A stretch of DNA of 64,000 nt. Origin: Mesodorylaimus sp. YZB2_4. Lineage: Eukaryota > Nematoda > Enoplea > Dorylaimida > Dorylaimidae. The stretch spans positions 186,001-250,000 of the forward strand of contig JASANH010001722.1 in assembly GCA_030248295.1 (NCBI GenBank), in the 5' to 3' direction. The stretch's first letter is position 1, and the number at the start of each line of letters is the position of its first letter. This document shows positions 4,128 to 51,640 of the stretch, piece by piece. The notes below the pieces were generated by a model. The model saw nothing but the letters and a program-made list of their open reading frames with translations. It ran no database searches and had not been told where the DNA came from. A program made the translations under genes and the position numbers.

Positions 4128-5141
4128 CTAGCACGCATGCAAACCTAGAGAACCTGCCTGTTCAATATCTTCCATCCTCAATGCCCGAATTTGCAGCCTA
4201 TCAGCACTGTCCTTTAGGCAACCGACTACAGTCTGTTCAATGACACGGAAACACCCGGGGGACACGTTGTACTGACCTGATGTCACCTCGTATAGACATC
4301 GTTTCTGAGCTTTGATGGGGATGTTATCCTGACCGAACTTGCATATCATTTCGTACTTGTATGGCGCTTGACCTTCCAACCACGTGTCGCCAATGGTCAC
4401 TTCGGTCGGATATCCATCTTTGATGCAGCCAATTGGAACTGCGCTAGCTTCGCCATCGTGCGCTTGACATTGATAAAGGATGGTGGATTTTTGGAAATGT
4501 TCTTGGTCTTGCATACGACGTCCATTGTAGACGCATCCGCTCGGTTTGATGGCGATCTTACGATTGTTGTCCGGATCACGTAAACACGTGTACCAATAGT
4601 CGCCACGTTCGAATGTATCGCCCAAACCATACTCTCGATTGTCCTTCGTACACCCGACTGGACACATGCTGCACGTGCCATTCTTGGTTTTCAAACATTG
4701 ATAAACGAAACTGCCTCGAGTCACCTTCTCGTTTATGGTCACCCGCCGACCTTGATCGATGCAGCCGGCCACTTCGATCCGCAATTGATCACCTTGGCGG
4801 GAACAGGAATATGCATATTTTAGATCGTCCCACGTTTCATCAGGGGCGTGTTCTCGACCATTGTAGACGCACGATTTGAACACGATGCTCAAATAACCAT
4901 CGCCATCTTCCACGCATTGCATACGGTAACTATTGCTGTCGTAGGTGCCACCGACTGGGATCTCTTTGTTGTCCTCACTCAAGCATCCCTTCGGAACCAG
5001 TTGACCATTCTGGCATTGATACCAGTATCGTCCACGCTCCACCTTGGCTCCATTCGTCACACCGCCCGGACACGTTTCTTGGCCTCTGGCACGGGCTGCA
5101 AAGCCACAAAGCAAGACTGCAAGCAAAGGCAGGAGAATCAT
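4128..5141 (-). CDS. Secreted protein with six Fn1-like (MIG-18-type) repeats
   Basis: An uninterrupted minus-strand frame. The frame extends upstream, but the ATG at 5141 is preferred because it places a signal peptide (MILLPLLAVLLCGFAARARG) at the N-terminus, giving 337 aa. The mature protein consists of about six repeats of 45 residues, each with the pattern C-x-(Y/D)-(N/Q)-G-x8-12-(W/Y)-x-Y-x-C-x8-12-G-C. This matches what is known as the 'abnormal cell migration protein 18-like, fibronectin type I' domain, a family found mainly in nematodes. The expected location is extracellular matrix or cuticle; the role in this organism is inferred only. A TATA-like CCATAAAAGG lies about 80 bp upstream of the ATG (5221-5230, minus strand), which suggests an ordinary promoter. 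Absence of introns over 1 kb is unusual among the genes here. The last 30 residues lack the repeat pattern. Confidence 0.8.
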   Translation of the reverse strand: MILLPLLAVLLCGFAARARGQETCPGGVTNGAKVERGRYWYQCQNGQLVPKGCLSEDNKEIPVGGTYDSNSYRMQCVEDGDGYLSIVFKSCVYNGREHAPDETWDDLKYAYSCSRQGDQLRIEVAGCIDQGRRVTINEKVTRGSFVYQCLKTKNGTCSMCPVGCTKDNREYGLGDTFERGDYWYTCLRDPDNNRKIAIKPSGCVYNGRRMQDQEHFQKSTILYQCQAHDGEASAVPIGCIKDGYPTEVTIGDTWLEGQAPYKYEMICKFGQDNIPIKAQKRCLYEVTSGQYNVSPGCFRVIEQTVVGCLKDSADRLQIRALRMEDIEQAGSLGLHAC

Positions 5142-5220
5142 GGTGGCAGATGGATGAGAGCGGGAGATGATCAGTGGTTCAAGGAAAAATGATGCACTGA
5201 GCCAACTCACCCCTACGCCT

Positions 5221-5230
5221 CCTTTTATGG
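5221..5230 (-). promoter_or_regulatory. TATA-like box upstream of the Fn1-repeat gene
   Basis: On the minus strand the sequence reads CCATAAAAGG, about 80 bp before the ATG at 5141. Position and sequence suit a core promoter; this is inference from sequence only. Confidence 0.4.
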
Positions 5231-6239
5231 ACGAAGGTGAGTCGGGTGGGGAACGCGCAGTCAGACAAGGACGAGGAGGGTGCGGCGAGTGAGGACGCCC
5301 GACAACCGTCTACCACAATCTGATGACCTTAGGCGCACCAGCAATGACTACCATTCATAATGAAAAAGTAACCTCCCCCATTTGTTTTCTTGACGGCCAT
5401 ACTACTCGATCGTCTCAAAAGGCGATTATCGTACGGTCCGTTACTGTACCTACTGGCTGCTGGCTGCTGCACCTCGCGGCTATGGATCAGGCGGGCGAAG
5501 GACGCGAAAAGAGGCCGTGGGACGAATTTCAATGCAGACTCCTCTTCTAGAAGAGTAAAAGTGACGCTCCTTCCGGCGCGGCCTCATTCGTCACCTGTCT
5601 CCCTTACAAGACATAGCTCATGCTCGACATCACTTACCTACATGCCTCCTGGACCACTAGCACACCCAAAATACACCGACTGGCAACTGTATCACTAGAA
5701 TGTCCGGGACAGCGAAAAGCAACGAGGGACAATAAATTTTTATATTTACTCCCATTTCTGAAATAAAATTCCATTTTATAGTCTTTGCGCGTGCACTAGG
5801 TTCAAATCGCATACTAATTTCAAAACTTGTCTTCACAACGGGCTCCGTCTGGAATGTATCATAAACCATAGGCGCAACTTTCTGGCTGCTAAAACAAATA
5901 TGTCATAAGAAGTGGTTGAAATGAAACATAGCAGACTTTGCACTACTCTTGAGTTTCCTGCATCAACTAACGATGAGCTTGGTGGTTTTTTCCGCTGTCG
6001 CTATCAGTTACTCAAATCGTGACTCAAATACTTCCCGACGGCTAACAGAAAAATTTGCCTTGGCTTATGAGGCGCAACATTTTTAGGCAGAGTTGAATTT
6101 TTCATGTCGCCTCGGTGGTCGAAACTCAAATGATAAGAACGTTTTTGTGTTAGCCGTGCACATTGCGTGGCGTCACAAGAAGGGTCCCAAGCATCGCACA
6201 TCTACTAGGACGGGCAAGCGAAGAATATCCGCTTCCTTA
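5231..6239. other. Intergenic, no gene recognised
   Basis: No supported coding frame. Copies of the ACGGCTAACAGA motif near 6039 and 6149 mark the beginning of the repeat field to the right. Confidence 0.4.
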
Positions 6240-11127: not shown

Positions 11128-14100
11128 ATGAATTATCTAAATACTATTTTTCCTGTTTGCGATACTCTTCCGAATTACCTTCGTCGATATACAAAATTGA
11201 ACGAAGCGGAAATTATTGGAAGCACTGAATCTTTCCCATATACAATTGTAGTTTGTGATCAAACGCCCCCTCGATCGCCTTTCAATGGTGGATCAGCGCC
11301 GTGTCAGTTTCTATTTTCTGAATTATATTCATCGGCAGAAAAAAAGAGGGCGGATAAAAATGAATTGTTCGTCAAAGATTCCCTGAATATTTCGCCTTGG
11401 TTTCGTCTACACGCTGTGACTGGCGATGCCTTATTGCGATATTTTTTTGAAAAATCCATATTATTTCGTGCATTAAACAATTCCGATTGTCCAAATTTTC
11501 TACTTCAAATTTCTGGTAAGCGAATTTACGGAAAATTTGGAAACATGATGAAATCGAAAATGATTCCTGAAAGAACGAAAAAGAAACAGAAACCAACGAT
11601 AAAAAGAAAACGAATCGTGATAGAAGAAGATAAAAGTGGTCGTGCAGAAAGCGGTCCGTCCGAAGTTGCGGGAACGAAAAAGCGAAAGAAACATCGTCGG
11701 GGAAAAAAGAAACAAAAAATTGCGAAAAGTAACGGTAAGTAAGTTAGATTTTCGAGAAAGGTACACGTCCGTTAAGGATCGCAATATATACTAGAATCGC
11801 GTAATAGCGTGGCCGATAGTACCAGCTTGGCAAGTGATGCTCGCGGATGTTAAATGGCTATATTCCCCTTTTTTTTCACATTTTCGAACGAGACTACTGC
11901 ACAAAGTCTGGGACTCGGCATTTTCAGAAATTTGTTAAAAAAGTTTCTCATGTTCAAAAATTCAAAAAAATGTTCAGGCTCTTCTGATAACTCATCCTTC
12001 GCGCGGACGCAGCAGCTGAGGATGAAGTTTCAGCCATGAGCCGGGTCAGAAGACTCGTTTCGCTTCCTTATTAGTCTTCAGCTTGCAAACACAATGCGCT
12101 CCTTGCCTGGTTGCTGATACAGTACGTTGATGCCCTTGAATATTTTACTGGATCACTGTAGGTAGGAAGCTGTCCTTTTCCAGTCGTATGCTCCCTGACT
12201 TCAAAGGTTAGGAAAAGATCTAGGATCAGCAGTTTGTCCCAACGAATGCAAATGGTTTTTTATGAATCGCAGCAATTTTTGCCTGCTTTGTGTCATTCTC
12301 TGCAAATTCATCCTTTGAGGCGCGGTAGCGTCCCCCCATGTAGTACATGTGCCGCACCAACAACGATATCTCAACGTAAGCCAATGAAATTTTGTGTTTC
12401 AGGAGGTAACATCTCTGACTGTCTGGATCAGTATCAAAAAAAATTTAACATCACAAGTTACCATAGAAAATACTTGCAAAAATTTTAGCTGCCAATGGCC
12501 GCGTGGTCAGCTGTAACGATCTAAAGGAAACGAACCGCTTCTGCACTAAGTAAACGAAAACACTGTGATGAGAGATCTGAGAGACAGTCAGCTCCAAAGT
12601 ATTCAGATAGGAAATTCTCGAACCTTGACCGCTAGTCGCAGCTGGCCATGTGGACATTGGCCATAGATGTGTAGGCATGTATGGGCCCGATATCTCACAA
12701 CGCTGATCAGGAGCTGTGTGAGAGTGGGGATCCAGCTACTCGTATATGGTTAATTGACAGGGTAACATCATTGTTGGTGCCTTTTAGCATTGATTTTCAC
12801 CAGGTATTGCCATGGATTGTTGTAGGGTGCTCAGACAGAAGGGAGTCCACTCAGCAAAATTATTATTTTCGCATTATTATTTGCACTCTAACTTTTTATA
12901 GCTCGATCGACTGCAATTACTGACTGAAAAATATCACTTATTACGCAGAGGGTTGAAGTTTTAGTTTTCGTTGGGGTCGCACTGGGTCCGTCAAAATATA
13001 CATAGATAGTTTACGTCATGTGTAATTCTTAACGATAGGGGCCATCCATAAAGGACGTTTACCAAAAAACGCGTTTTTTTGACTCCCCCTCCCCCTATCC
13101 ACCTTCCGTCCATTTCGTCTTGACCCCCCTTCCCCCCTCTAGAAATGGACGTCCAATTTAGCGGACCCTTCCACCCTTCATAGCAAATATTCGTTCTAAA
13201 AAAGCATTCTCCTTGCGTCGACCGATTCGCCGAAATGATGGGGGTTGGTGGCTTCAGTCTGATTCGACTGCTGCATCTGCCGGACTGGCAACTATAATTT
13301 TTCTTCCAAATCGGTATTGAATCCCGCTGACTTTTCGAAGTGGTCATAGACAGTGATTGCGAGGAAACAGGCTTGTTGGAGGGCAGGTTGACGAGGGCGA
13401 AGTGCCAAAGACGTCACGCCGATTTATATCTTATTTCTTTGGGATCCACGCCCAGGTCCGACCGATATATTGGTTGACCGATAATATCGGCCGATAATTG
13501 CGATATCGGTTATCGGCCGATACCGATAATTTGTGCTGCCGATAATGTAGATTTCTCTATCAATAAGAGTTTAGGGCGAGCATACGGCCTGTTGATAGTG
13601 ATTATGACGAGGAGCAGGGAGCTACGGACTCTCGATCAAAGAGGTCAGTGCCCAAGAACAGTCTGGAGCTAAATCACGACAAGTCACTATCATCATGATC
13701 ATGACTTTTCTTACTGGGATGCCCGCAATGGCACCAAAGCACTTTACTCTAAAAGCAGTTGGCTGTCTGTGTTGCATAGGCTAAGGTAGGAGGAGGAGGT
13801 GGGGCTAGCCCTGCCTTGTTACTTGCATGCTTCTCAATGAAGGCTATTTCTTTGCCTCGTGTCGTATTGTTATTAGACTGTACACTCAGAAACAAGAGTC
13901 CTTCTCATGCCCCCGCGGCACAATAAACTACACGTTAGTCTGACCCAAAAAAGGAGCTATGCCTACAAATTATCGCTGTAGTCGTAGCATTCACCCTTGA
14001 GTGAGATTTTGGGGATAAGGTTAGTCTTTCCCCATTCGGAGTCAGGGACAGGAATGGTGATGGCATTCAGGGTCTTCTGGGGTTGGAGATAACCCTGACG

Positions 14101-17100
14101 GGGCTGGGATAGAAAAAAGCTTCCTGGCTGTTGAAGTCCGTCTATCTGTTCATTCTTTTCTTGACATGTTTCAAAAACCTCATGAAGTTTGCCATGCATC
14201 GTAATTTTTTTTATAAGTATAAACATCTCAGTCATCTCAGAACGTTGCACATAATGCTGATACTATGTTTCGTGGGTATTTTCGTTTATCTGGACGTGGA
14301 AAAGTGTTTGAGGGTGAATCCCCGATGCATGTTTTTTTGGGATGGGGATCAGGGTCAGGGCCCCAGTCGAACACTTGAGCCCTCAAAAAGTTGTGAAAGG
14401 ATCTGCTTTGCATATTTCATTATCCCTACGTAGAGTCTAACAAAATGAGTTTCAGACAGGTCTGGGTCTTATTCAAGTTTCCAGGGTGTACATTTGCACA
14501 TAATGTACAAATGTAAGATAGAAGCAACAAAGTCCAGTTTTGTACTCCAATTTCAATGAAGGGAACTCTGCTGTTTCATGAGTGACTTCCTTTTACTCAA
14601 GCATCCAGACCCCCTGCCAGCTGGGTTTTAATATTTTTGCCCACTTCCTGACAGTGTCACACGGCTGGTCCTAGAGGTGTCATGCGTTGCCTCTAGTATA
14701 TGACATCTGCGAAGTGGAGTTTTCAGTTGGGATATTGCAACTTACATAGTCTTCGCTCCCGAGATTTTGCGCTACTTGATTGATTGATTGGTCTTTAAAG
14801 GAAGCCTAGCATGCGAAATTAAAAAAATTGCATGTTTTAAGGATAGTGATCTGACCGAAATTCAAATTTCCCGCCATAAAACTTGAATTTTTCAAGTTTT
14901 CAAAAATTATCGGCTTTATCTGCCAGTAATTGCGTTATCGGTTATCGTTTATCGGCCGATACCGATAATTGCCTCATCGGTCGGACCCCGATCCACGCCG
15001 ATGGTCAGATCAGTCGACGCTGGTACTGCTCAGCATCATCTCTGGCCTCCCAGTGACGCAACGAATAAATGTTACCCTGGCGCCAGTGGAGCATGGCGAA
15101 TGGGGAAGTATTGATCCTCCTCTCTGCCAGGTTCAACCAAACCAGCTTCAGCAGCTGAACCATGACCAGAGGACAGAACCAGGATCGAAATAAACCGCAG
15201 CTTTCCTGCTGCCAGTCAAGACGGACTAGACAAGTTGTACAGCTTGCTCGATCTTGGTGAAGATCAAGACACACCCGCGATAATTCTTAGTTTATGATTG
15301 ACCTTTCACTAGAAGCTTTTAAGTAATAATTTTTTTAATTTTGCACTGTCAGTCAGTGTGAAATGATATAAGGCACGCGGGTTGGTCCTGGTTCGGTTCG
15401 GTTTGGTCCTACTTCAATCGGCAGGCTCGGCGGCGGTAATCGATCTTAGTATCGTGGTATAAGCTGGAATATAATAGATGTTAGTCACTTGACGAAGAAT
15501 CTTCAAAAGAGTCATTTTTCTAGTCATGTGCAGTCGTGACAATTTGGTAAATTTGGTGTAAGGGAGCTGGGGTACCGAATTATGCAAGCTTTTCCCCCAG
15601 ATAGGCTTAAGTCCCGATCAGCTTCAGGACACCAAATTTACTTCTTGCCCAGCGTAGCACGACGGTTCGGCTGAATAGGTGGGGCTCGGCCACGCAATTG
15701 CCTCGACATGACAAGACAAACTTTTATTAGACTATGGTCACTGCGAGTGAACACGATATACTCAACTCTGCCTACATTAAAGAATCGGCTCCTTATATGC
15801 ATAGTCCTGGCCTGGAAAATACGAGAAATACTAATTCAAGAGCAACAACTAATCATGGCAGGACAAATATGCACGGGTTATCAGGTAAAGGTTAGACACA
15901 ATACATCATGCAAAACACAAATCACCATCACTGCATCTCATAGAACTAGTCCGACAAGACAAACGATGTCTCCAGGCAAATAGCCTAGATACATTCAATT
16001 CCTCAATGAATGATGCTGAATGTCTTTGGAAAACTGTCATACTGGCGCCAAGTCAAACCTATAAATAAGTACTGGATAATTTGGGGACACGTGGAGAACA
16101 TCTGCATCGAAAAAATTCATCCTTTGAAAAAAAAACACTAAATCGTCTTTATTTTTAAAGGATGTTACTGCATATTTAGTATATTTGCATAAATTCAATT
16201 TAAAAGGTCAAAAGTTCCATGCACGCTTAATACACCCCTATGTTCTAAATTTGCCGTGCCCTATTGCTGCAAGAAAGTCTCACGAAGCTGCACTTTCGCC
16301 CAAATTCCAGGCTAACGCAAGTTGAAAGAGTGTAGTTAAAAGAGGGTCCTGTCGTGCACATAAATATCTACTATGCAAGAGCTGTTGCGAGCATACTAGC
16401 AGCCTGCTGGTCGAGCAGGTGATATAAATGAGGCTAGTTGTTATGGTCTACTTGTCAGCCCTAAAACCGCGAGTGCAATGTGACCAGCCAGTAGCCAGGC
16501 AGGATCTTTCTCGATCACCTTTTGTCAGCCTGGACAATCCTACTACGAAGGCGATCAAACCACATGTACTACCTTTTTTAAGTTACATTTCATGAATATT
16601 TTGCTAATAGCCCTGTTATTGCTAAATATTACACAATAGTCTTGGCTCCCCTTATGGTAGCATAAAATTCATTAAGTACCTAATGAAATATTTTATGAAG
16701 TAGTCATTGAATCAAACCACCCTACCTACTATGCTTTGAAAAAGCTTGAAAGCTTAGAGGATCGAGCTTTTTTCTAGCGCTATGCTGTGGAATTTCCATA
16801 GTGTGCTCGCCTTCATTGTCCATGATATTTATTTACATTTCTCTTTGTGGAATTAAGCTTCTTTCTTTCTAGCCCCACCTATTGGCCTAACATTTGCCAG
16901 TTTAATGAAGAAACCGCCTTTTTCATTTCATTTCGTGCCATCTTCACTTTCGATTACAGCTAAAAGATTTCTTTATTGTTTCGATCTTCGCGAAAAATTT
17001 GTCGCTATGAATCATCCGATTGCTAATGCAGCAAAAAGTGGATTTCATTTAGATCGATCGCTTTTGGAAAACACGTTTGGATTTTTGCATGACGATCCAA

Positions 17101-20100
17101 TTTATGTAGAAGCGGATTGCGCTGTGAATTCCTTGATTCCATTATTGAGTCGCTGGATCAAGTTACATCGACGGCATACTTGCTATAGTTCTTCCTTGAA
17201 CATATTTTGTCCGATTGATGAATCGTTGACTTCATTTCCTGATAAGGATGAAAATCGATTGTCAATTTTGGTGCAAGAATATTGCCAAAAATTTCGTGTC
17301 AAGCGGGCGTTAGAAGTTATTTTATTTCGTGTCATTCCTATGGAATTATTCGGGGAAGAAAATACGACTCGTTTATTAAATGCATTTATCCAATTCGTCA
17401 TTACCGCCTGCCGATTCGATGTTATCAGCTTGCATCAATTTACGCAATGCGTGAAAATGAAGAAATGCCGGTGGCTGAAAATGATCAATAACGATAGCTT
17501 AAGGAAACATTTTCTATTGAGGCTATTACTTGTGCTTATTAGGTAAGTGCCTTATGGTCATTATGGTAAGTGTCAGATTTTTTGTGTCTGAGTCAGTAAT
17601 GAGCATGATTTTGTGGAGGAATTTGAGGTTTTTATAGTGTCATGCCGTAGTGGCAATAATAAGTTTTTCTGATTTCCATCTTTTCGCGCCCAGTTTTTAA
17701 AATTAGTCGCATTGGTTATCACTCGAATGATATGATAGTTCTTGAATTGTTTCAGATATCTTATCCGCGTCGTTTCATCCTGCTTTTACATCACGGATTC
17801 TCAATCTGATCGATATCAGCTGTTTTTCTATCGAAAACCGATCTGGCTTCGTATTTGCCGGCTTGCTGGCGCTCAGTTTATCGAACGTTGTCGTCTCAAG
17901 CCTGTCGTCGGCTTCGACCAGCAGGCTCCATATTATGGACCATTTGCGCTGCGCTGGGTTCCAAAAACAGGGGGCGAAGTTCGGCCCATTATTAGTGCTC
18001 AATATGGGCGAATTCGATCAAGTATGGTCGCTTCTGGCAGCGTAAAAGCGATGAACATGGATCTAAAACCAATTTTGGCCATTGCACAATATCTGGTTCG
18101 ACAAAAGACTGGACTTTTTGGTAAGTGCAGTTGGCTCTTTTGGACTGTGGAAGGCAATAATCACTAGCTCGGTGCCTGATTTATATTATTCACGCTGCAA
18201 GTTGGTGCGCGCGCAGTTATCGGCCAGTGTTCGAGTCGCGACAGAATCAACTATTTTGTTATAAGATTTTTTTGAGATTGTGTCCCTCACCTGCAAGTGC
18301 ACATACCCGGGTTTCCTGATGCGGTGACGCTGGTGACAGAAAACTGCTGCTAAGGTTTCTTAAGGTTTTTAAATGAGGTTTTTTGGACTGCTCCTCTTTT
18401 GAAGATGCGTAAACAATAAATGGGTATTTGATCTTCCTCCAGATCAATGTCATGCATATATGAATTAGCGAACAAGTCTTCTTGCTCCAGAGAAACGATT
18501 TAGTGATCATGTACATTATACTGTTGGGCCTTCTTACTGATTTTTCACTTTGACTTTAGTACAGATAGTCAAACCGCAGCGATTTTATGTATATCAACTA
18601 GCCCAAGAATGTCAGTTTTCTAGATGCCTCTGCCAGCACTTATGTAACGCATTTGTCACTATTTTAATGGATGTAGGATTAGAAACGGGTCTAACCCATC
18701 AGCAGTTATGAGTGATGTAGAAATAGAAACGAGGCTTATAGGCTTTTAAACATGTCAATGCCTATCAGTCATGCGAGCATTCCAAGCGCTCTCTAGTGTT
18801 CGCATGCAGATATGTTGGCATTCGTCTCTCCGTTTGCTCGAGAGCGAGTCGCTTGGCTCATCCTGGATTTGATCCTTAGTGATAGAGGTTGCCTTGCGAT
18901 CCATAAATCCTTAAACCCTGCACGCCAGGCCATGAGTGGCTCACCAAGTACGTCGAGATGCTTCGAGTGGAGATACAGGAGCCAAATGAGCATTCAGTCT
19001 CGGCTGTTAAACACCGACAGGATCATAGCCCACCTGTCATCATCTGAGGAAGTAGGTGTCCAGTCCAGGATGCCCTCGCGTGGAGGTGCAGGCAGTATAT
19101 GTACACGCAGACGGACGCTGGTGTGTGAGCTGGTTCCTGCACAGGCCTCCTTAGAATGTTTGACTGCTGGCTAGCTGGCTACACACAAAATGGGCTTCGG
19201 TCCACAATAAAGTTCAAGAAAATGTAAAGTGATGTCAGAGCATGCATGATAGCCTATAGTGTGCCTTTCTTGGCTCTCTGCCATTTCAGTAGTCGCCAGG
19301 TCACACAATACTTTCCTGATTTTTTTCCATAATAACGTTAATTCGTATTCTACATTTCTGTCTCTATATTTAGGCAGCGCAGTAAATAATTCCAAAGAAA
19401 TTCATTTTAACTGGCGTAATTTTGTGATTGGGAGGTGTCAAAATCGCTGTCAGTCGACTCCTCATTTCATTGTTAAAGCTGATGTAACTGGTTGTTACGA
19501 TTCGATTAATCAAGATTTGCTGTGGGCCATAGTGAATGAGCAATTGTTGAAAGACTCGCCCAATTACTTCGCATTACAAGGTCACTTTTTCATACGCTCA
19601 GCACCATCAGTTGATCAGCCTTCGAGCAATGGCAGTTTCACCAATACAAAATTTCGATATTCCGTGCGTCCATTAGATCAATATGAATCATTGGCTCGGC
19701 ATTATTCATCCATGGATTCAGCGAAAGGCTCGAAAGCCTGTGTTCTGGTAGTTCCACGAGGCGATTCGATAGTGATTTCAAAAGAATCGGTTTTACAAAT
19801 TTTTAAACAATTAATTTTTCGTCGAACTTTAAAAATGAGTGGTGATCGAGGCCGATATGTGCAAACGTTGGGACTTTCGCAAGGGTCGTCGCTTAGCGTG
19901 CTGTTATGCAATTTATATTTGGGTACTTTAGAGAAAAAATATTTTAAAATTATTATTATGGACAAGGAAGACTTGTTGGTGAGGCATTTTTTAAGATTTT
20001 TCTAGAGCTACAGCCACTCTGTAGGTCAAAGTAAAACTGGATCTTCATCTACGTTTCCAAAATTGTATGCATTTCTGACATTTCAGATGCGTCAAGTTGA

Positions 20101-20740
20101 TGATTTCCTATTTGTCACTCCATCTATGAAACGTGCTCAACGATTTTCTGAAGTTATCTCTCACGGATTTCCAGATTTTAATTGTCATTTCAAACCAGAA
20201 AAGACTGTAACTAATGTGGAGTGGGAAATGACGGTTTCCGAAGATGTCGCAATCATCATGAAATCAAATGATCATCCTTGGAAAAATTGGATTCCTTGGT
20301 GTGGTTTGTTATTCGATGCCAACTCGCTTAGTGTTTCAATGGATTCCAATCGCTGGAGATTCAATGATGCACGAAATCAAATTATGGTCGATTTTTCAAA
20401 ATATCCTCCGTCATATGTTATTCGAAAGATGTTCGATTATTTGCGCATACGCGCCTCTCTTATGATTTTTGATAAGTCAATAAATGCGCCCGTTATTTTA
20501 CGTCGTAATGTGAAATTTTTGACACGACTTTTGGCAAATTGGTACGCTGCATATGTTCGAGCGTATGAAAATAGTGTGGTCGTGGATGTGAGTGCGAAAC
20601 GTCGACTACAAGACAAGAAGTTTGTGGATGAATTATGTAAAAGAATTTTTAGTGCTTTATCTCATCATGTTCCTGGAGTTAAAATGGTGAGACTTAGTAT
20701 GATAAGGAAGATCCTTTTGGATGAACTTGGCTTTGAATAA
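11128..20740 (+). CDS. TERT: Telomerase reverse transcriptase, five exons
   Basis: Exons 11128-11734, 16873-17542, 17756-18120, 19374-19978 and 20087-20740; all borders are GT/AG and the phases agree, giving about 966 aa. TERT adds telomere repeats to chromosome ends in the nucleus using an RNA template. Exon 1 holds a TEN-like domain (about residues 1-135, ending LLQISGKRIYG) and a very basic linker, a likely nuclear signal. Exon 2 carries the CP/QFP region (RVIPMELFGEEN ... KCRWLKMI). Exon 3 carries motif T (FYITDSQSDRYQLFFYRKP) and motif 1 (LRWVPKTGGEVRPIIS). Exon 4 carries motif 2 (GSAVNNSKEIHFNWRNFV), motif A (VKADVTGCYDSI) and motif B' (QTLGLSQGSSLS). Exon 5 has motif C (RQVDDFLFVTP), motif D (KTVTNVEW), motif E (WCGLLFD) and a C-terminal extension. 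All three catalytic Asp residues are present. ATG 11128 is chosen because the TEN homology starts there. Extra small exons inside the 5.1-kb first intron cannot be excluded. Confidence 0.93.
12317..12985 (+). repeat. Dispersed repeat R1, copy 1 (in TERT intron 1)
   Basis: Aligns in order with 38214-38935. Shared stretches include GCGCGGTAGCGTCCCCC, ATGTAGTACATGTGCC, CACCAACAACGATATCTCAA, GAGCTGTGTGAGAGTG, GACAGGGTAACATCA, GGTGCCTTTTRGCATTGATT and GTAGGGTGCTCAGA. Middle parts diverge. No coding frame persists in both copies. A short piece (GTGCCACACCAACAACGA) recurs near 57800. Confidence 0.8.
13035..15110 (+). repeat. Dispersed repeat R3, second copy, split by an insertion
   Basis: The left part 13035-13452 and right part 14992-15110 together match the uninterrupted copy at 8640-9155. 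The 1.54-kb hAT-like element lies between them. The right part resumes with ATCCACGCCGATGGTCAGAT and ends around CTGGCGCCAGTGGAGCATGG. Confidence 0.78.
13453..14991. mobile_element. hAT-like non-autonomous DNA transposon, 1.54 kb
   Basis: The left end reads CAGGTCCGACCGATAT and the right end, in reverse, TCGGGGTCCGACCGATGA, so the two form an imperfect terminal inverted repeat. The duplicated target TCCACGCC (13445-13452 and 14992-14999; up to GATCCACGCC) flanks it. Both subterminal regions are crowded with TATCGGCCGATA-type palindromes. An 8-bp duplication and a CAGG-type terminus are known hAT hallmarks. No transposase frame was recognised inside, so it is probably mobilised in trans. It sits in TERT intron 1. 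Confidence 0.83.
15547..15641. repeat. Short inverted repeat, 13-bp arms
   Basis: GTAAATTTGGTGT at 15547-15559 is repeated perfectly in reverse complement at 15629-15641, with about 69 bp between. It could form a stem in DNA or in the TERT pre-mRNA. Function unknown. Confidence 0.6.
16250..16595 (+). repeat. Dispersed repeat R2, copy 1 (in TERT intron 1)
   Basis: Aligns with 40170-40548 through GTCTCACGAAGCTGCA, AAATTCCAG, ATAAATGAGGCTAGTTGTTA, TGTGACCAGCCAG, GATCACCTTTTGTCAGCC and CAAACCACATGTACTACCTT. Both copies are intronic, one in TERT and one in the PP6 regulatory-subunit gene. Non-coding repeat of unknown class. Confidence 0.8.
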
Positions 20741-24074: not shown

Positions 24075-26523
24075 CTACTTCACCAGAAATCCGAATCCGA
24101 AAGGATCATCATCCTCTACAATAAATTCACATGAGCCAGAAAAATATGCTTTTCCAGCAACTTCAATCACAACAGCATTTTCGTGATCACCAATTGGTTT
24201 TTGGGCTGCTACTTTTCCTAGAATAGAAATAATTTAAAAAGGCATGATTTCGGGCTTTACTTAAAGTTTTCTAGCCTGTAAGCTCGTTTCAAAGCTTTGT
24301 TTTTATCGCAGTTAATGTTAAAAATATTTAGGTCTCTCTTAACCGTACATTTCACTCACACTGTTTTTTTTCTGCAGGCATGCAGTACTACAGCGGTGCA
24401 ATTAATGCATATCAACTATGCAATTATGGGTCGTTCCCATTCCCGTAAGAACTTTGGAAATTTACTCACTAGTGAATATGCTTGAGTTTGCGCCGCTAAT
24501 AAATTTAATAGTTTCATCGAGCACAATCATGCCTTTGTCATACATTAACGCCATCCTCGCTGTAACACCAGAGCCAGTTGGGCATCTGTCGACCTATTAA
24601 CAAAGTTCATAGAGCGAACATGGTTCACGTCAGAATGTGCGTCATGTATGTTTGAACCATGCTGAAACTCGTTCAGCAACATCAGAGGCATAATTTTGTT
24701 GAATGATTCCTTTCGTCCTTTTCTCAGTTAGAAATTCTCAGCTCGCAAGCTTTTGTCTGCAGCCTTGTAACTGTTGCAGGATCAGTTCTTGTTTGACTTG
24801 GACAAGCCTGAGAGTACCTCGAAGCTAGAGTAGCACGTGAAATGTGAATGTGATTGGGTGCTCATTTATAAGGTGGAAATCTGGATTTTTACAGAAAGTT
24901 GAATTCAGCGCACTTTACGAATTTTTGACTGTGATGCGCAGCCAAGCAGGTCATACTGTAATGCTGATTTCTCATCGCAATGATTTTGCTCTCAGTGTTT
25001 CCGCGCGCACTTTTTATTTGCAACTGTCACGATCACAACAGCTTTGTGAAATGCTCCAGAAATGGTATTTCTGATTATAATTATCAACAAAAAACCTATT
25101 TCAAAACTGTCAATTTCCAGACTAAATGTCAAAATTCTAGTCTAAATGTCAAAATGTGGTCATAAATGTTAATTGCTAGACCAAACTCTCAACTGTTCCT
25201 CCCAGCGATACTTCAGGCTCAATACCGATTCTAACGAAACTGATTCCGAGTACAGTAGAAACTGCTGCCTGGGCATCAGAATCGAAAGCGCGCGGAGTAT
25301 TTGCGATTCAGCTCTGAAAATCCGCCGCGCGCATTTTTTTGAATTAAGGGATTCGGATGTGAGCACAGTGAAGTTGCCCTGGGATCTGCAGTACATATCA
25401 CAGCACGGGCACCTTCTTCAAGGCATTGTGTGCTATCATAGATTTAGCTACAGACATACAGCAAAAATATAGATCCAGCTGTAATATTACCTCTCCATCA
25501 GCAAATATTGTCAAGTTGGTAGTCTCTTTTTGGGTTGCCAGCCTTCGGTCGTCAGTGAATATAACACCATACAAAAATGCTAAATCAGGTGCCGATTTAT
25601 TTTGGATAGGAATTTCCGCCATAAGATAGCCTGAAAAAATTTTGTATTGCATTTTTTTCTGCCTTTGCCGCTAAAACTCTTGCTTTAGTTTTTTCATACT
25701 GCAAATTTTGCAACCTACGTTTAATTATCATGGCCGTCTTTATGATGTCCCAAATCGAAGTGGTACCAAAAATGATGCCACATTGATCAATTGGTACAAT
25801 AGAATAGTAAGCGCCGCCAAATGCTATGTTAAGTTTGAGCTCTCCGATATCCGGCACAGTAACAGTGATATCTAAAATATGAATGTTTATTTGAGTTATC
25901 TAATTTTTTGTTTGAAAATTGGACGTTTTAGTTTTCTTTTCACAACTAATGTTGTGCAAGAAATTTTCACTTCTATGCAATATGAAAACTGTTTTACCAA
26001 GCTGCTTTTTTATACACCATCAAAAAATGTTATATAACAAGACTTCGCACTTGCCTTTTTTATATGAAAATGCTGGCACGCTCAAAAATCGAACTGCACC
26101 ATTCTGACGCGGATCCAAACTTTGCTTGACAAACATTTCCACCAATCCGCATGGCACTTCGATAGTTACTCGCATTTCTCCTCGATCTTCTCCCGCCTTC
26201 TTCCACATTCTCTCTACTATATACCTGCCCAAACATATGGTTGCATGGCCGCACATGGTGCTATATCCTTCATTGTGCATGAATAATACGCTGTAATCTG
26301 CCTTCTGATCGATTGCTGGCAATACCAAACACCCGTACATGTCCCTGTGGCCCCGTGGCTCCCACATCAAGAATTTTCGATACTGGTCCATGTTTGACAT
26401 GAGAAATCGCCGTTTATCCAGTAGTGTCGATCCAGGAATTTCAGGAAATCCATCTTTTACTATTCGCAATGGTTCTCCTCCGCAGTGCATTTCGCAGGTA
26501 CGAATGTTGATTGAATTCGCCAT
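24075..26523 (-). CDS. L3HYPDH: trans-3-hydroxy-L-proline dehydratase (proline racemase family)
   Basis: Five exons on the minus strand: 26523-26055, 25871-25719, 25630-25491, 24593-24470 and 24217-24075, all in phase, giving 342 aa, close to the usual size of about 350. The cytosolic enzyme removes water from trans-3-hydroxy-L-proline to give pyrroline-2-carboxylate, part of collagen-hydroxyproline breakdown. Seen: MCGHATICLGRYIVE with the first catalytic Cys, GAVRFLSVPAF, FGGAYYSIV, DLAFLYGVIFTDD, DRCPTGSGVTARMAL and VEDDDPFGFGFLVK at the C-terminus. In racemases the second active-site residue is Cys; here the aligned residue is Thr, as in the dehydratases. The Cys just before the PTGSG is not the catalytic position. 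The first intron has a GC donor (G|GCAAGT); the other donors are GT. ATG 26523 opens the conserved N-terminus. Confidence 0.92.
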
Positions 26524-27242
26524 TTTCTATTCTTATTCACAACATACGATAGCCGAGCAGAGAGCAGTTTTCTGGGCCTCTAGTGAGTAGTTTAAATGAT
26601 GCTTCCAGGCGGGTCTTGTTTGCGCAGGAGGGGTGGCCAGATATGAGTTATTTCTGTCTGGCCCGATGTCTTCTGCAGATAAGGCGCCCAGTCCCGCAGA
26701 AACTGTGTGTGGAGGGATACTGGTTTCATAAACGGCCTTACTTCTGCTAGAGACTGGCCTTACCAGTCTATGACACAAATTTTCCTAAGAATATGAGGAC
26801 ATTGCATTTTGGGTTCACCGCACTACTTTTTCTCTTTGCTAGTCACGTTTTTCTCTGTTCTCTTAATTCTTGCCAGGGTGATGGGAAATTTTTTGGCTTC
26901 CATGACGAAATTTTCTAGTATAAATCTTAGAAGTTACAGCTATTATACGGAAAGGGTGATAGATTTACAGTGGACAGATATGCATATGTATGTATATATA
27001 TATAAATACGGTTACTGGATCTAGATATCTATGTATATACTGGAGTGTTTTTTTCGATCAGCTTCGATGCGCCAAGTCTTATTACAACACATTTATTAAT
27101 GTTGTATAGAAACCACCCGTGGTAAAAAAATTTTCATATTGCATAATAGTAGCAATTTCTTGCACAAAATTGGTTGTGATAAGAAAAGTAAAAGTCTATA
27201 TTATGTGTGCATATATAAGGATCTGCACGGATATTTCCGCAT

Positions 27243-32038: not shown

Positions 32039-33100
32039 ATGGCGACTCGAAAGTCTCATCTGACTGTTGGACAACGGTCATTGGTGGTCGATCTCAAGAA
32101 CCAAGGTCAATCGTATAGACAAATCGTCACGGCTACGGGCTTCAAGCGCTCCACCATCTTCTCGATTATCAAAAAGTCGATAATCTCCTAGACAGTCGAA
32201 GATTTGCCTGGACGTGGTCGAAAACGCAAGACGACGCACAGAATCGATCGCGAAATAGCGAACAAAGTAAAGGCGAATCGGCGAATATCGGCGGTCCAAG
32301 TGGCCAGGGAACTCGAACAATCCAAGAACATCACGATTTCGGCCGAAAATATTTGTCGACGTCTGCATGAGGCCGAATTCCGATCACGCACTGCCCGCAA
32401 AAAACAAATTCTTTCTGCCCGACACATGAAAGCTCGTCTGCGTTTCGCCATGGAACACAGGAACAAGCCCTTGGAATATTGGAGAAAGATCTAGCGGTCA
32501 GACGAGTCGAAATTCAATCTTGTTACATCAGATACCCGAACCAATCAGAGTTCGGCGGGAGGCAGGTGGAGCGTACAAGGTAAGCTGTACCCGCGGCACA
32601 GTCAAACTCGGTGGTGGTAATGAAATGGCGCTGGTTGATTGGAGTTCAACGATGAGTGCTGAGCACTATTGCCGCATTTTGGACAACAATTTGTTCCAAT
32701 CCACTGATCATTTGCGCATGCCAGCCGATTTCATCTTTCAGCAGGACAACGACCCCGAGCACACAGCGCGCAGAACCAACCATTGGTTCGACGAATATGG
32801 TGTTCACTTGCTGGAATGGCCTGCACAGAGTCAACACCTCAATCCTATCGAGCATTTGTGGAAAACACTAGAAATCGAATTGGGCGATCGTCGATTCACG
32901 ACCAATGATGAGTTGAAAGCTGCAGTGGCCCAAGCTTGGCAACGATTAGGCTTCCAAAAAATTCGCAGTCTGGTCGACCGTCGATCGATACTTTGTTAGG
33001 CCTCCATCCGCCTTGATGACTGCTTCCAGTCGACAGTCGATCGATGCCGCGGCGACTGGAAGCAGTCATCAAGGCGAAAGGAGGCCCCACAGAGTACTGA
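32039..33100 (+). pseudogene. Tc1-type transposase, broken
   Basis: The frame from ATG 32039 encodes an N-terminal helix-turn-helix (LTVGQRSLVVDLKNQGQSYR), then stops at TAG about 32189. The next frame has PGRGRKRKTT and a second helix-turn-helix and stops at TAG about 32494, directly before the catalytic RSDESKFNL. A frameshift follows, then GGAYKVSCTRGTVKLGGG, a short internal deletion, the second catalytic Asp (FIFQQDNDPEHTA) and the last acidic residue (NPIEHLW). The natural C-terminus is displaced by an inverted duplication (33009-33076) and resumes at 33044-33100. At least two stops, one frameshift and one rearrangement make it inactive. Confidence 0.9.
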
Positions 33101-43200: not shown

Positions 43201-45056
43201 TCTCAATTTTTTTATACACTATATATACGTTTTTAAAAAATATACATAAGTACGAAGTTACCCTTCTTTGTAACCATCAGAGCACAAGGAGAGTGACTTC
43301 TAAAATAACGTGATGTATATATATATATACATATTGTCAAGTGATGTGTATATATATATCTGCTCCATGTATATTCTTGTCCTCTGCATAGAAATGGAGC
43401 ACAGATAAACCTCTAAACTATGTACCATATATATATATTTAGTTTATGTATACAGTATATACCTATATGTTTAGTTTATATATATGTATATATATATATA
43501 TATATAAACTAAAGTTTAGGGTCCAACATTTTCGCTAAGTCAACTAAAATATGGCTGCTGAATCTGAATATCATAGTATTTTCCTACATGCCGCATGTTA
43601 TATATATATTATATGCATCAAGTCATCCTAAGCCTGAAAACATGAGACAGAACCTACAGTAAATTAGAAACGCAAAACATTACCGTTTTTATAATCCGAG
43701 CCTGCTTATCATCATCGCCACCGCATGCCAGCCGGAATAACCCTTCAGCCAAAGCGGATATATCCAAATTCTCAATCAAGTTGTCCAAAAATGCTGGTTC
43801 CGCTTGCATATAAGCCAAAACCTTTAAAGTTTTCTGCATTTGTTTTTATTTTATCAACTTTAGTCAACCATTTTACATGATCGGCTTGTCTAGTTATGAG
43901 AAGACTGAAAACTTTATTGAAAAAGCTCGCCAATAGTGGATTTAACGTTTTCTTTTGATCATCGAAATTCGGGCGCACAAAATTTGCCAAAATATTAAAA
44001 CATTGAGTACATTTGCCCAATGCGGTTGTCAGCACTTCAGACCCGGCGCTGAGTATTTCGCTTGCCAAATGGGAATATCTGAAAGAGTCTGACAGTCAGG
44101 TGTCGGGCAGTTGGGTGCAGCTTGACAGGAGATTCCCGTCAAAGGCTTCAGAAGAGCTCGCGGTCAGTGATCGACCAAAAAGGTCTGTCCGAACAGAATT
44201 TCAGTCAGTTATATGACTTAAAGACGAAATGCACTCTAGATTCGATGTGGGAATATTCAAAAAAAGAGTGCGACATTCAGATTTAGCACCCATATTTTAG
44301 TGGGTTGCAAAAATTTTGGACCTCCAGCACCCATGCAAAAAGGCTCAAAATTTTGATTTCCTAATGGTCCCCCTTGCAATGAAAAATTTCGACTTTTTTC
44401 TGTGGGCGCTGGAGCCCCATCATTTTCGCTACCCCAACTTAACTATGGGTGATGAATCTGCATATCAAACTACTTTTTAATATATCCAAGTCGATTCTAG
44501 AGTTTACTTCGTCTTAAAGAGGAAAAAATTCACTCGCGATTTTTGTGAGATCAAGATTACATAAAAATCAATTTTACAAACTTGTATTTTCTAGTTTCAT
44601 CTTCGCAATATTCTGGCTCCGTCACGCAAAATTTTGTGAGTGCAATTAAATTTTCGTCTTTTGTTAAACTGCAAAAAAATATTAGTGGGCTAATTGCAAT
44701 GGTTTGTAAAAATATGTGGGGACTTACAAATCGGTTAATCGTTTATTGCCGCATTTTAATTCTTGTAAAATATATTCATCGTCCATGACTTCCGTCAGTT
44801 TGATGTCCTGTTTGCAAATAAAAGGGGCAAATAAGGTTTTGTAAGTACTAGGTTGTGATTTGGTGGAAAACCACGAACTTGGGTTTTATATAAACTGATA
44901 TTTTTTTTCTTTTTAAAGTCCTTTGGGCTACAAGATTATGCTAATTGACCGAATATGGGTACACAATCAACAAATCTGTGACCATATTCTTACAGGTTTA
45001 TCTAGTATGGTAGCCAATGAGCTAGTTTGAAATGCCGCTTCGGTTCGCCAAAACAT
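34218..45056 (-). CDS. PP6 regulatory subunit, SAPS-domain protein
   Basis: SAPS proteins bind and target the protein phosphatase 6 catalytic subunit. Minus-strand exons that join in phase: 45056-44994, 44807-44728, 44668-44582, 44078-43877, 43833-43684, 42194-42004, 41932-41801, 41696-41495, 41437-41288, 37882-37670, 37323-37286, 37233-37115, 37035-36863, then (at least) 34924-34882, 34831-34624, 34567-34312 and 34254-34218. Family signatures: MFWRTE start, DIKLTEVMDDEYILQELKCG, RKYKYSHLASEIL, LLASFFNKVFSLLITRQ, ALESRPVLDDLLC, TPLGSARLALTQLLAQLLSN, ELFFKHKWNNFLHTNVVNCF, then acidic DEDVWAEKEITF, WASFDDEW and a NDWAQFT end. About 600 residues precede the gap between 36863 and 34924, where one or more exons are unresolved; 34924 may extend to about 35041 after a TTTTTTGCAG. 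Total is about 800 aa or more, near the family size. Introns range from 43 bp to 3.4 kb. Confidence 0.93.
35418..36030 (-). repeat. SINE family A copy split by a solo LTR
   Basis: The tail and B-box side lie at 35418-35555 (minus strand: GGGTTCGACTCCCGCCTGG, then the CTCGAGTGCGCC and TATGGATAAAGTATGGCATG tail). The A-box side lies at 36006-36030 (TTGTGGCCTATCGGTTAAGG on the minus strand). The 450-bp LTR lies between them. It is in a PP6 regulatory-subunit intron. Confidence 0.85.
35556..36005 (-). mobile_element. Solo LTR of a retrotransposon, 450 bp
   Basis: Begins TGTAATAGG and ends CTGTTTCA on the minus strand (TG...CA), and is flanked by the duplicated target GACG (35552-35555 and 36006-36009). 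Internal signals are in LTR order on the minus strand: TATATAAAGG near 35787-35778, then AATAAA near 35657. A direct repeat with CAAATAGTCTGTGCCTCG lies at about 35897 and 35935. No retroelement coding sequence adjoins it, so it is a solo LTR left by recombination. A 4-bp duplication fits Ty3/gypsy-like or related elements; the class is not proven. Confidence 0.88.
38214..38935 (+). repeat. Dispersed repeat R1, copy 2
   Basis: Partner of 12317-12985. This copy lies in the 3.4-kb PP6 regulatory-subunit intron. It includes a GTATGTATGTATGTATG stretch near 38585 and the same GAGCTGTGTGAGAGTGG and GACAGGGTAACATCACTG blocks. Confidence 0.8.
39628..39726 (-). repeat. SINE family B tail fragment
   Basis: The minus-strand tail (GGCCGGTGAATCGTTTCGTG, CCCTTCACCCTCGAGTGCGC, GTTTGGTGATGTGGAAAATC, ATGAACATGAACATGA) is present; the tRNA-like head is missing. 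Lies in a PP6 regulatory-subunit intron. Confidence 0.75.
40170..40548 (+). repeat. Dispersed repeat R2, copy 2
   Basis: Partner of 16250-16595, with two short extra stretches relative to it (around 40280-40330). Lies in the PP6 regulatory-subunit gene's largest intron. Confidence 0.8.
42360..42430. repeat. TA microsatellite
   Basis: ATATATATATATATGTATATATATAT-type sequence inside a PP6 regulatory-subunit intron. Length variation between individuals is expected. Confidence 0.8.
42480..42646 (-). repeat. tRNA-derived SINE family B, full copy
   Basis: Nearly the same as the copy at 31831-31997: minus-strand head CCTCGTGGCCTGGTGGGTTA, GGCGTCTGCCTCTCACGCC, GTTCGACTCGCGGGCC, then tail CGGTAAATCATTTCGTGTAA and CCCTTCACCCTCGAGTACGC. 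Lies in an intron of the PP6 regulatory-subunit gene. Confidence 0.87.
43300..43520. repeat. Cluster of TA microsatellites
   Basis: Three separate (TA)n runs (about 43314-43330, 43424-43440, 43480-43507) in the same intron, separated by TTTAGTTTATGTATA-like sequence. Confidence 0.75.
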
Positions 45057-50780: not shown

Positions 50781-50992
50781 TTTAAGGCATTGTAGAGGAC
50801 TTTTTTAGGCACTCGGTTTTTTTCCGATGCACTGCACTAAGATGACACAAATTTACATCCACAGCAGGCTTTGTTGTCCCATCTTGTTTCTCTTTTTTTA
50901 CACTCCCGCCTCTCCTTGTGATCACTTGTCAGATTTTCGAATGCTGTTGTCAACTTTTTCGACTTTGTGAATGCTAAACCACGACAGCGACT

Positions 50993-51640
50993 ATGAATAT
51001 TTTAGGTTGCCATCAAGGTCACAGTCATGGTCCAGGCGGTGCGAGACGACGAGCTTGTATCAGCGGTTCTGACCTGGTTACAACTCCGGCAGGTCCAAAA
51101 CGGCTCGATCAAATACAAATTGGCGATCTGGTTGCTATCGGCAATGGCCAATTCGAACCAGTGGTTACATTCTTACATCGCGATACAAGTCGGAATGTGC
51201 CGGGTTATCGAATAACCACGTCAAAAAACACCACTCTGACTCTTTCCTATGAGCATCTGATTTTTATGGCACCATCAAAGCATGCCATAATGATGAAAAA
51301 TGTCAAACTTGGTCAAAGAATTTTTCTTTTAAGAAAAGGAGTATTTTCAGAAGAGATTATTGTTGAAATTGAAAAAAGTGAACTGGAAGGTCGATACAGT
51401 CCACTGACAAAATCTGGTGTCCTGCTGGTCAACCAGATTCTGGTATCCTGCTATTCGCACGCTCATGATCACAATCTGATGCATCGTGTTGTCCAGTGGT
51501 TGCTTCCTTATTCACGCCTGGTCGACCTGTTCAAAACCCAGGATGATCTATTTGACAATCAGGAATGCATGCATTGGATTGGGGACACATTGTGGTATTT
51601 TTTTCGTCATTGGTTTATTGCTGATGATACAATTTTTTAA
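50993..51640 (+). CDS. Hedgehog-type Hog (Hint) autoprocessing domain protein
   Basis: One frame of 215 codons. Residues 22 onward form a Hint module: the nucleophile Cys in ACISGSDLVTTPAGPKRLDQ, then GDLVAIG, VTFLHRD, the TLTLSYEHLIFMAP block with its conserved His, KLGQRIFLL, and YSPLTKSGVLLVNQILVSCY near the end, as in the Hog half of Hedgehog. This domain cleaves its own N-terminus and joins it to a sterol. No Hedge or Wart signalling domain precedes it. Either ATG 50993 starts a Hog-only protein (such a protein is known in nematodes), or an acceptor at ATTTTAG (51000-51006) joins upstream exons that I could not find. The segment before the Cys is His/Gly/Arg-rich (CHQGHSHGPGGARRRA). Confidence 0.85.
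   Translation: MNILGCHQGHSHGPGGARRRACISGSDLVTTPAGPKRLDQIQIGDLVAIGNGQFEPVVTFLHRDTSRNVPGYRITTSKNTTLTLSYEHLIFMAPSKHAIMMKNVKLGQRIFLLRKGVFSEEIIVEIEKSELEGRYSPLTKSGVLLVNQILVSCYSHAHDHNLMHRVVQWLLPYSRLVDLFKTQDDLFDNQECMHWIGDTLWYFFRHWFIADDTIF

Follow-up and report, generated by a model that had tools for sequence, protein, structure and literature searches.

A five-exon telomerase reverse transcriptase gene with a probable, shortened TEN domain in a nematode genome

Relation to described telomerase reverse transcriptases

The C-terminal extension (CTE) and the TEN domain of telomerase aid DNA binding and repeat addition. Excerpts of Lai et al. 2017 (PMC5405514) state that one or more motifs of the telomerase reverse transcriptase (TERT) have been lost in all protostomes, that the N-termini are truncated in most nematodes with the exception of Trichuris, and that the Caenorhabditis TERTs are among the shortest and lack the CTE. 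The same excerpts describe the GQ motif as retained by nematodes, also by Caenorhabditis, and as absent in Tribolium castaneum, and they attribute to Cai et al. 2012 a Trichinella spiralis TERT with all 11 canonical motifs, including the GQ motif of TEN. The telomerase RNA outside Caenorhabditis is described as unsolved in an excerpt of PMC12921731.

The stretch of DNA analyzed here (the window, 64,000 nucleotides) comprises bases 186001-250000 of contig C81 of a 145-Mb assembly. It contains the one TERT gene detected in this genome, which belongs to a nematode with TTAGGC repeats of the telomere type. The likely product is read from a five-exon transcript, is 966 residues long and comprises a shortened and diverged TEN domain, a linker, the RNA-binding domain (TRBD), the reverse transcriptase domain (RT) and the CTE. 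As far as the description given by Lai et al. permits a comparison, the protein resembles the Trichinella spiralis enzyme in being a nematode TERT, with a GQ end that is putative here. Caenorhabditis elegans TRT-1 is likewise a nematode telomerase for TTAGGC repeats, but is short and devoid of a CTE in the excerpts of PMC5405514, whereas the protein predicted here has 966 residues and retains the CTE. Its TEN-like exon also sets it apart from the Tribolium castaneum TERT, for which the same source reports no GQ. Human TERT (PDB codes 7qxa, 7trd and 7bg9) displays the same order of TEN-like part, linker, TRBD, RT and CTE, but has a longer TEN, with which a direct comparison of the TEN-like part gives no significant score.

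The original prediction had put forward the survival of a long TERT in some nematode lineages, on the premise that the C. elegans enzyme lacks the N-terminal region. The survival of the long form is already in print, and the premise conflicts with the excerpts of Lai et al., in which Caenorhabditis retains GQ. Because long nematode TERTs are reported there, the gene is a good further example of this form and not a new kind of enzyme. Its value is that it adds to the nematode TERTs a clean gene of five exons, with a probable TEN of reduced size and with TTAGGC arrays in the same genome; it may aid in tracing where nematodes shortened TERT and provides an anchor for the search for telomerase RNA outside Caenorhabditis.

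Gene structure and catalytic core

The predicted splicing of the window joins five exons of the plus strand, from 11128 to 20740, into one reading frame of 966 codons and a stop codon (Table 1). The four introns measure 5138, 213, 1253 and 108 nt and are all of the GT-AG type, and the start, the end and the four junctions of the gene coincide with those of the original prediction. Exon 1 ends with a GTAAGT donor that is in phase with the acceptor of exon 2, and an in-frame ATG is found at residue 214, within exon 2. Further exons inside intron 1 could be missed because of its length of 5.1 kb. No Pfam domain over the cut-off was found in six ORFs scanned in intron 1, nor in ten ORFs scanned in and around introns 1 and 3.

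Table 1. Features of the predicted TERT gene (positions in the window)
Feature	Position	Strand	Content and basis
TERT exon 1	11128..11734	+	Residues 1-202 plus one base; TEN-like region 1-137, basic linker 138-202
TERT exon 2	16873..17542	+	Start of TRBD, CP-like stretch 17175-17216, QFP region
TERT exon 3	17756..18120	+	T motif 17823-17846; motifs 1 and 2 17949-17990; alignment with human TERT
TERT exon 4	19374..19978	+	Motif A 19475-19501, A-B' insertion, motif B' 19865-19897; alignment with human TERT
TERT exon 5	20087..20740	+	Motif C 20090-20122, D 20195-20215, E 20288-20317, C-terminal extension, stop
Tract aligned to the end of TEN (SPWFRLH...QISGKRIYG)	11392..11532	+	Residues 89-135; TEN profiles
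Lys/Arg-rich linker	11539..11734	+	Residues 138-202; composition
Intron 1	11735..16872	+	5138 nt; includes a dispersed repeat element (about 200 bp)

A phmmer search of the PDB with the spliced protein (E up to 10) matched 17 distinct sequences, 15 of which are telomerase reverse transcriptases; the remaining two are chance-level matches (E 0.21 and 9.7). The best match is human TERT (E 3.9e-54), which aligns with residues 325-897, and the solved TRBD of 4lmo aligns with residues 289-464 (E 3.6e-17). PDB 3du5, which we take to be the TERT of Tribolium castaneum, was matched at E 3.8e-11 by phmmer, the likeness being that of a TRBD-less-divergent RT core. A solved beetle TERT is named in an abstract from 2026. 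Residues D584, D754 and D755 align with the catalytic aspartates of human motifs A and C, and motifs B', D and E and the A-B' insertion also lie within the human alignment. This alignment ends at residue 897, and the approximately 140 residues that follow motif E constitute the C-terminal extension. The names CP, T, 1/2, A, B', C, D and E are our own assignments to the stretches; with these assignments, all of the TERT motifs that had been predicted are placed, and the stretches from T to E fall inside the human TERT alignment.

The Pfam family Telomerase_RBD (PF12009) matches exon 2 with 35.7 bits and exon 3 with 35.8 bits, against a cut-off of 25, and these two exons are its only matches in the whole assembly at E 0.001. 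The RVT_1 family reaches 26.0 bits on the ORF that holds exon 4, which is below its cut-off of 29.6, and the ORF of exon 5 matches no Pfam family. At the level of sequence, the identity of the locus as TERT is confirmed. It is extremely improbable that the locus is a decayed pseudogene, as 966 codons remain open across five exons, the splice sites conform to the consensus, the catalytic residues are kept, and these exons alone match the RBD family when the assembly is searched at E 0.001.

The N-terminal exon

Comparisons of exon 1 with single sequences and with public profiles gave no significant result. Neither Pfam nor the PDB (phmmer) returned any match to exon 1 at E 10, and BLASTP against human TEN found nothing at the right place. 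In Smith-Waterman comparisons with human TEN, scores as high as that of exon 1 were obtained with 432 of 5000 shuffles, and as high as that of residues 1-145 with 313 of 5000; other ORFs of the window reach 45 as compared to 34 for the ORF of exon 1, which is outside the best ten of 829. A search of the genome with the Pfam model TEN_TERT gave no match, and neither did its controls. The single-sequence AlphaFold model of residues 1-156 (pLDDT 32.1, pTM 0.22) is of too low confidence to inform on the fold.

A different picture emerged with a TEN profile built from five TERT sequences, two of them verified against the PDB and three unverified. With this profile, exon 1 ranks first among the 827 ORFs of the window with an E value of 0.0064 and 11.8 bits, followed by an ORF with 5.8 bits, and none of 5000 shuffles scores as high (best 8.1 bits). 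The C-terminal block of TEN alone again places exon 1 first (E 0.011, 11.3 bits; next 6.6), with none of 5000 shuffles as high (best 6.1 bits). Both the profile search and hhalign align the end of TEN with residues 89-139, and G99, Q127 and G130 occupy columns that are invariant in a MAFFT alignment with TERTs. In the profile-to-profile comparison, hhalign scores exon 1 at 26.0, above the best of 337 other ORFs (21.2) and the best of 300 shuffles (19.7), but assigns it a formal probability of only 10%.

No profile detects TEN homology in the first half of exon 1; there, MAFFT sets IVVCDQTPPRSP beside the human block CLVCVPWDARPPP, a pairing that is suggestive only. The two TEN blocks are separated by 34 residues here and by 63 in human TERT. 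The TEN-like N-terminus of the original prediction is therefore upheld in part: its LLQISGKRIYG segment lies within the tract that the profiles match to the terminal part of TEN, while the first half goes undetected by them. We consider the assignment of exon 1 as TEN to be moderately supported by these alignments. Because TEN is recognized by profiles only and at its end, and the spacing of its blocks is reduced, the N-terminus is best read as a shortened and diverged version of this domain, which is probably what it is; the domain is missing from many invertebrate telomerases.

Alternatively, the real TERT could start in exon 2, for instance at M214 with a product of 753 residues, and exon 1 would then be part of another transcript. 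Such a start would correspond to the truncated form that the excerpts of Lai et al. (PMC5405514) describe for most nematodes, and it accords with the in-frame ATG, with the position of exon 1 5.1 kb upstream and with its lack of significance in single-sequence searches. Yet the donor of exon 1 is in phase with the acceptor of exon 2, the tract of the window that most resembles TEN sits in this exon, and no Pfam domain over the cut-off occurs in the ten scanned ORFs of introns 1 and 3 and their surroundings. Codon usage also connects exon 1 with the other TERT exons: with a model trained on exons 2-5, its ORF ranks 6th of 339, and the five ORFs above it include two TERT exon ORFs from the training and one other frame inside exon 2. 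A start in exon 2 is, on balance, unlikely.

It is also conceivable in principle that exon 1 does belong to TERT but that its N-terminal part represents a basic extension specific to the lineage and not homologous to TEN, with the TEN-like tract having arisen by chance. Only about 50 residues align, the formal probability given by hhalign is low, and the profile was built in part on unverified sequences. Against this stand the first rank among 827 ORFs and the scores above all 5000 shuffles, both obtained with two profiles, the position and order of the tract upstream of the TRBD, and the agreement of G99, Q127 and G130 with invariant columns. We regard a chance tract as unlikely and retain the reading of a shortened TEN.

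The predicted basic linker between the TEN-like part and the RNA-binding domain is borne out by composition, as residues 138-202 include 25 Lys and Arg residues versus 6 Asp and Glu residues (pI 11.23). A role of this linker in nuclear localization or in contacts with nucleic acid is possible.

By analogy with the human and ciliate telomerases, the TRBD of the enzyme would hold the telomerase RNA, and TEN would help to keep the DNA and the template together for repeat addition. The gene is expected to be expressed as the five-exon transcript and to yield a catalytic subunit of 966 residues, whose RT, if active with an RNA partner as in other telomerases, would copy the RNA template into TTAGGC repeats. 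The GQ end of the shortened TEN may still allow it to dock on the RT/RNA core. A tentative extension of this proposal, to which we give limited credence, is a miniature TEN from whose middle about 30 residues have been lost, with the GQ end and the basic linker kept, in a nematode possibly outside the canonical SL1 group. If true, it would show how little TEN a TTAGGC telomerase needs, and would represent an intermediate between the full and the TEN-less animal TERTs.

No template of at least 9 bases of the GCCTAA repeat was found in the TERT introns. The lone 9-base match of the window, at 43627, compares with 2.9 expected by chance, and no Rfam family exceeds its gathering score in the window.

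The host genome and other features

The assignment of the window to a nematode, which the original prediction had suggested, is supported by the genome-wide searches. A five-unit TTAGGN pattern matches the genome 839 times in the forward and 823 times in the reverse direction, overlapping matches being counted, and among the matches listed the unit is TTAGGC at all places except four, which have one or two variant units. The cuticle-collagen N-terminal domain is matched 133 times. The repeat in intron 1 (window 14990-15186, about 200 bp) occurs, its own copy included, in at least 40 places on many contigs with at least 77% identity, as counted from 40 scored of 219 candidates, and it is also present on at least 10 contigs with cuticle-collagen matches. 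Because this repeat is common to the window and the collagen-bearing contigs, both are parts of one genome.

The canonical SL1 is absent from the genome at up to 1 mismatch, which hints at a lineage outside the nematode groups that have SL1. A second 18S copy on contig C162 (L039, 980-3037) is 95.2% and 97.5% identical, in two pieces, to the 18S of contig C791 (L038, 1226-3031), and is interrupted by an insert of some 280 bases. Contamination was considered as its source and rejected, as the identities and the insert give it the appearance of a degenerate copy from the same species.

Contig C15, 1.1 Mb long, contains two internal TTAGGC arrays (246076-246753 and 506545-506993) that are distant from either end. 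Another (C18:1046855-1047015, of 1047059) lies near the right end of its contig on the minus strand, in the orientation opposite to that of a chromosome end.

Contig C73 (244000-263200; L026, L027) carries a COX1 frame in the invertebrate mitochondrial code, followed by frames that we presume to be ND4-like, and a second, inverted COX1/ND4-like copy beside apparent nuclear genes. This arrangement is possibly a palindromic nuclear copy of mitochondrial DNA.

Other ORFs of the window matched known families. An ORF of 393 residues at 4131-5309 on the minus strand contains three Fn1_2 stretches (E 3.3e-44), and one at 26023-26526 on the same strand matches proline racemase over its initial part (E 2.7e-39). 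On the plus strand, a transposase-like ORF with DDE_3 (E 2e-7) is found at 32430-32996, and the ORF at 50978-51637, which encodes a Hint module (E 5.2e-28), is possibly a hedgehog-related gene.
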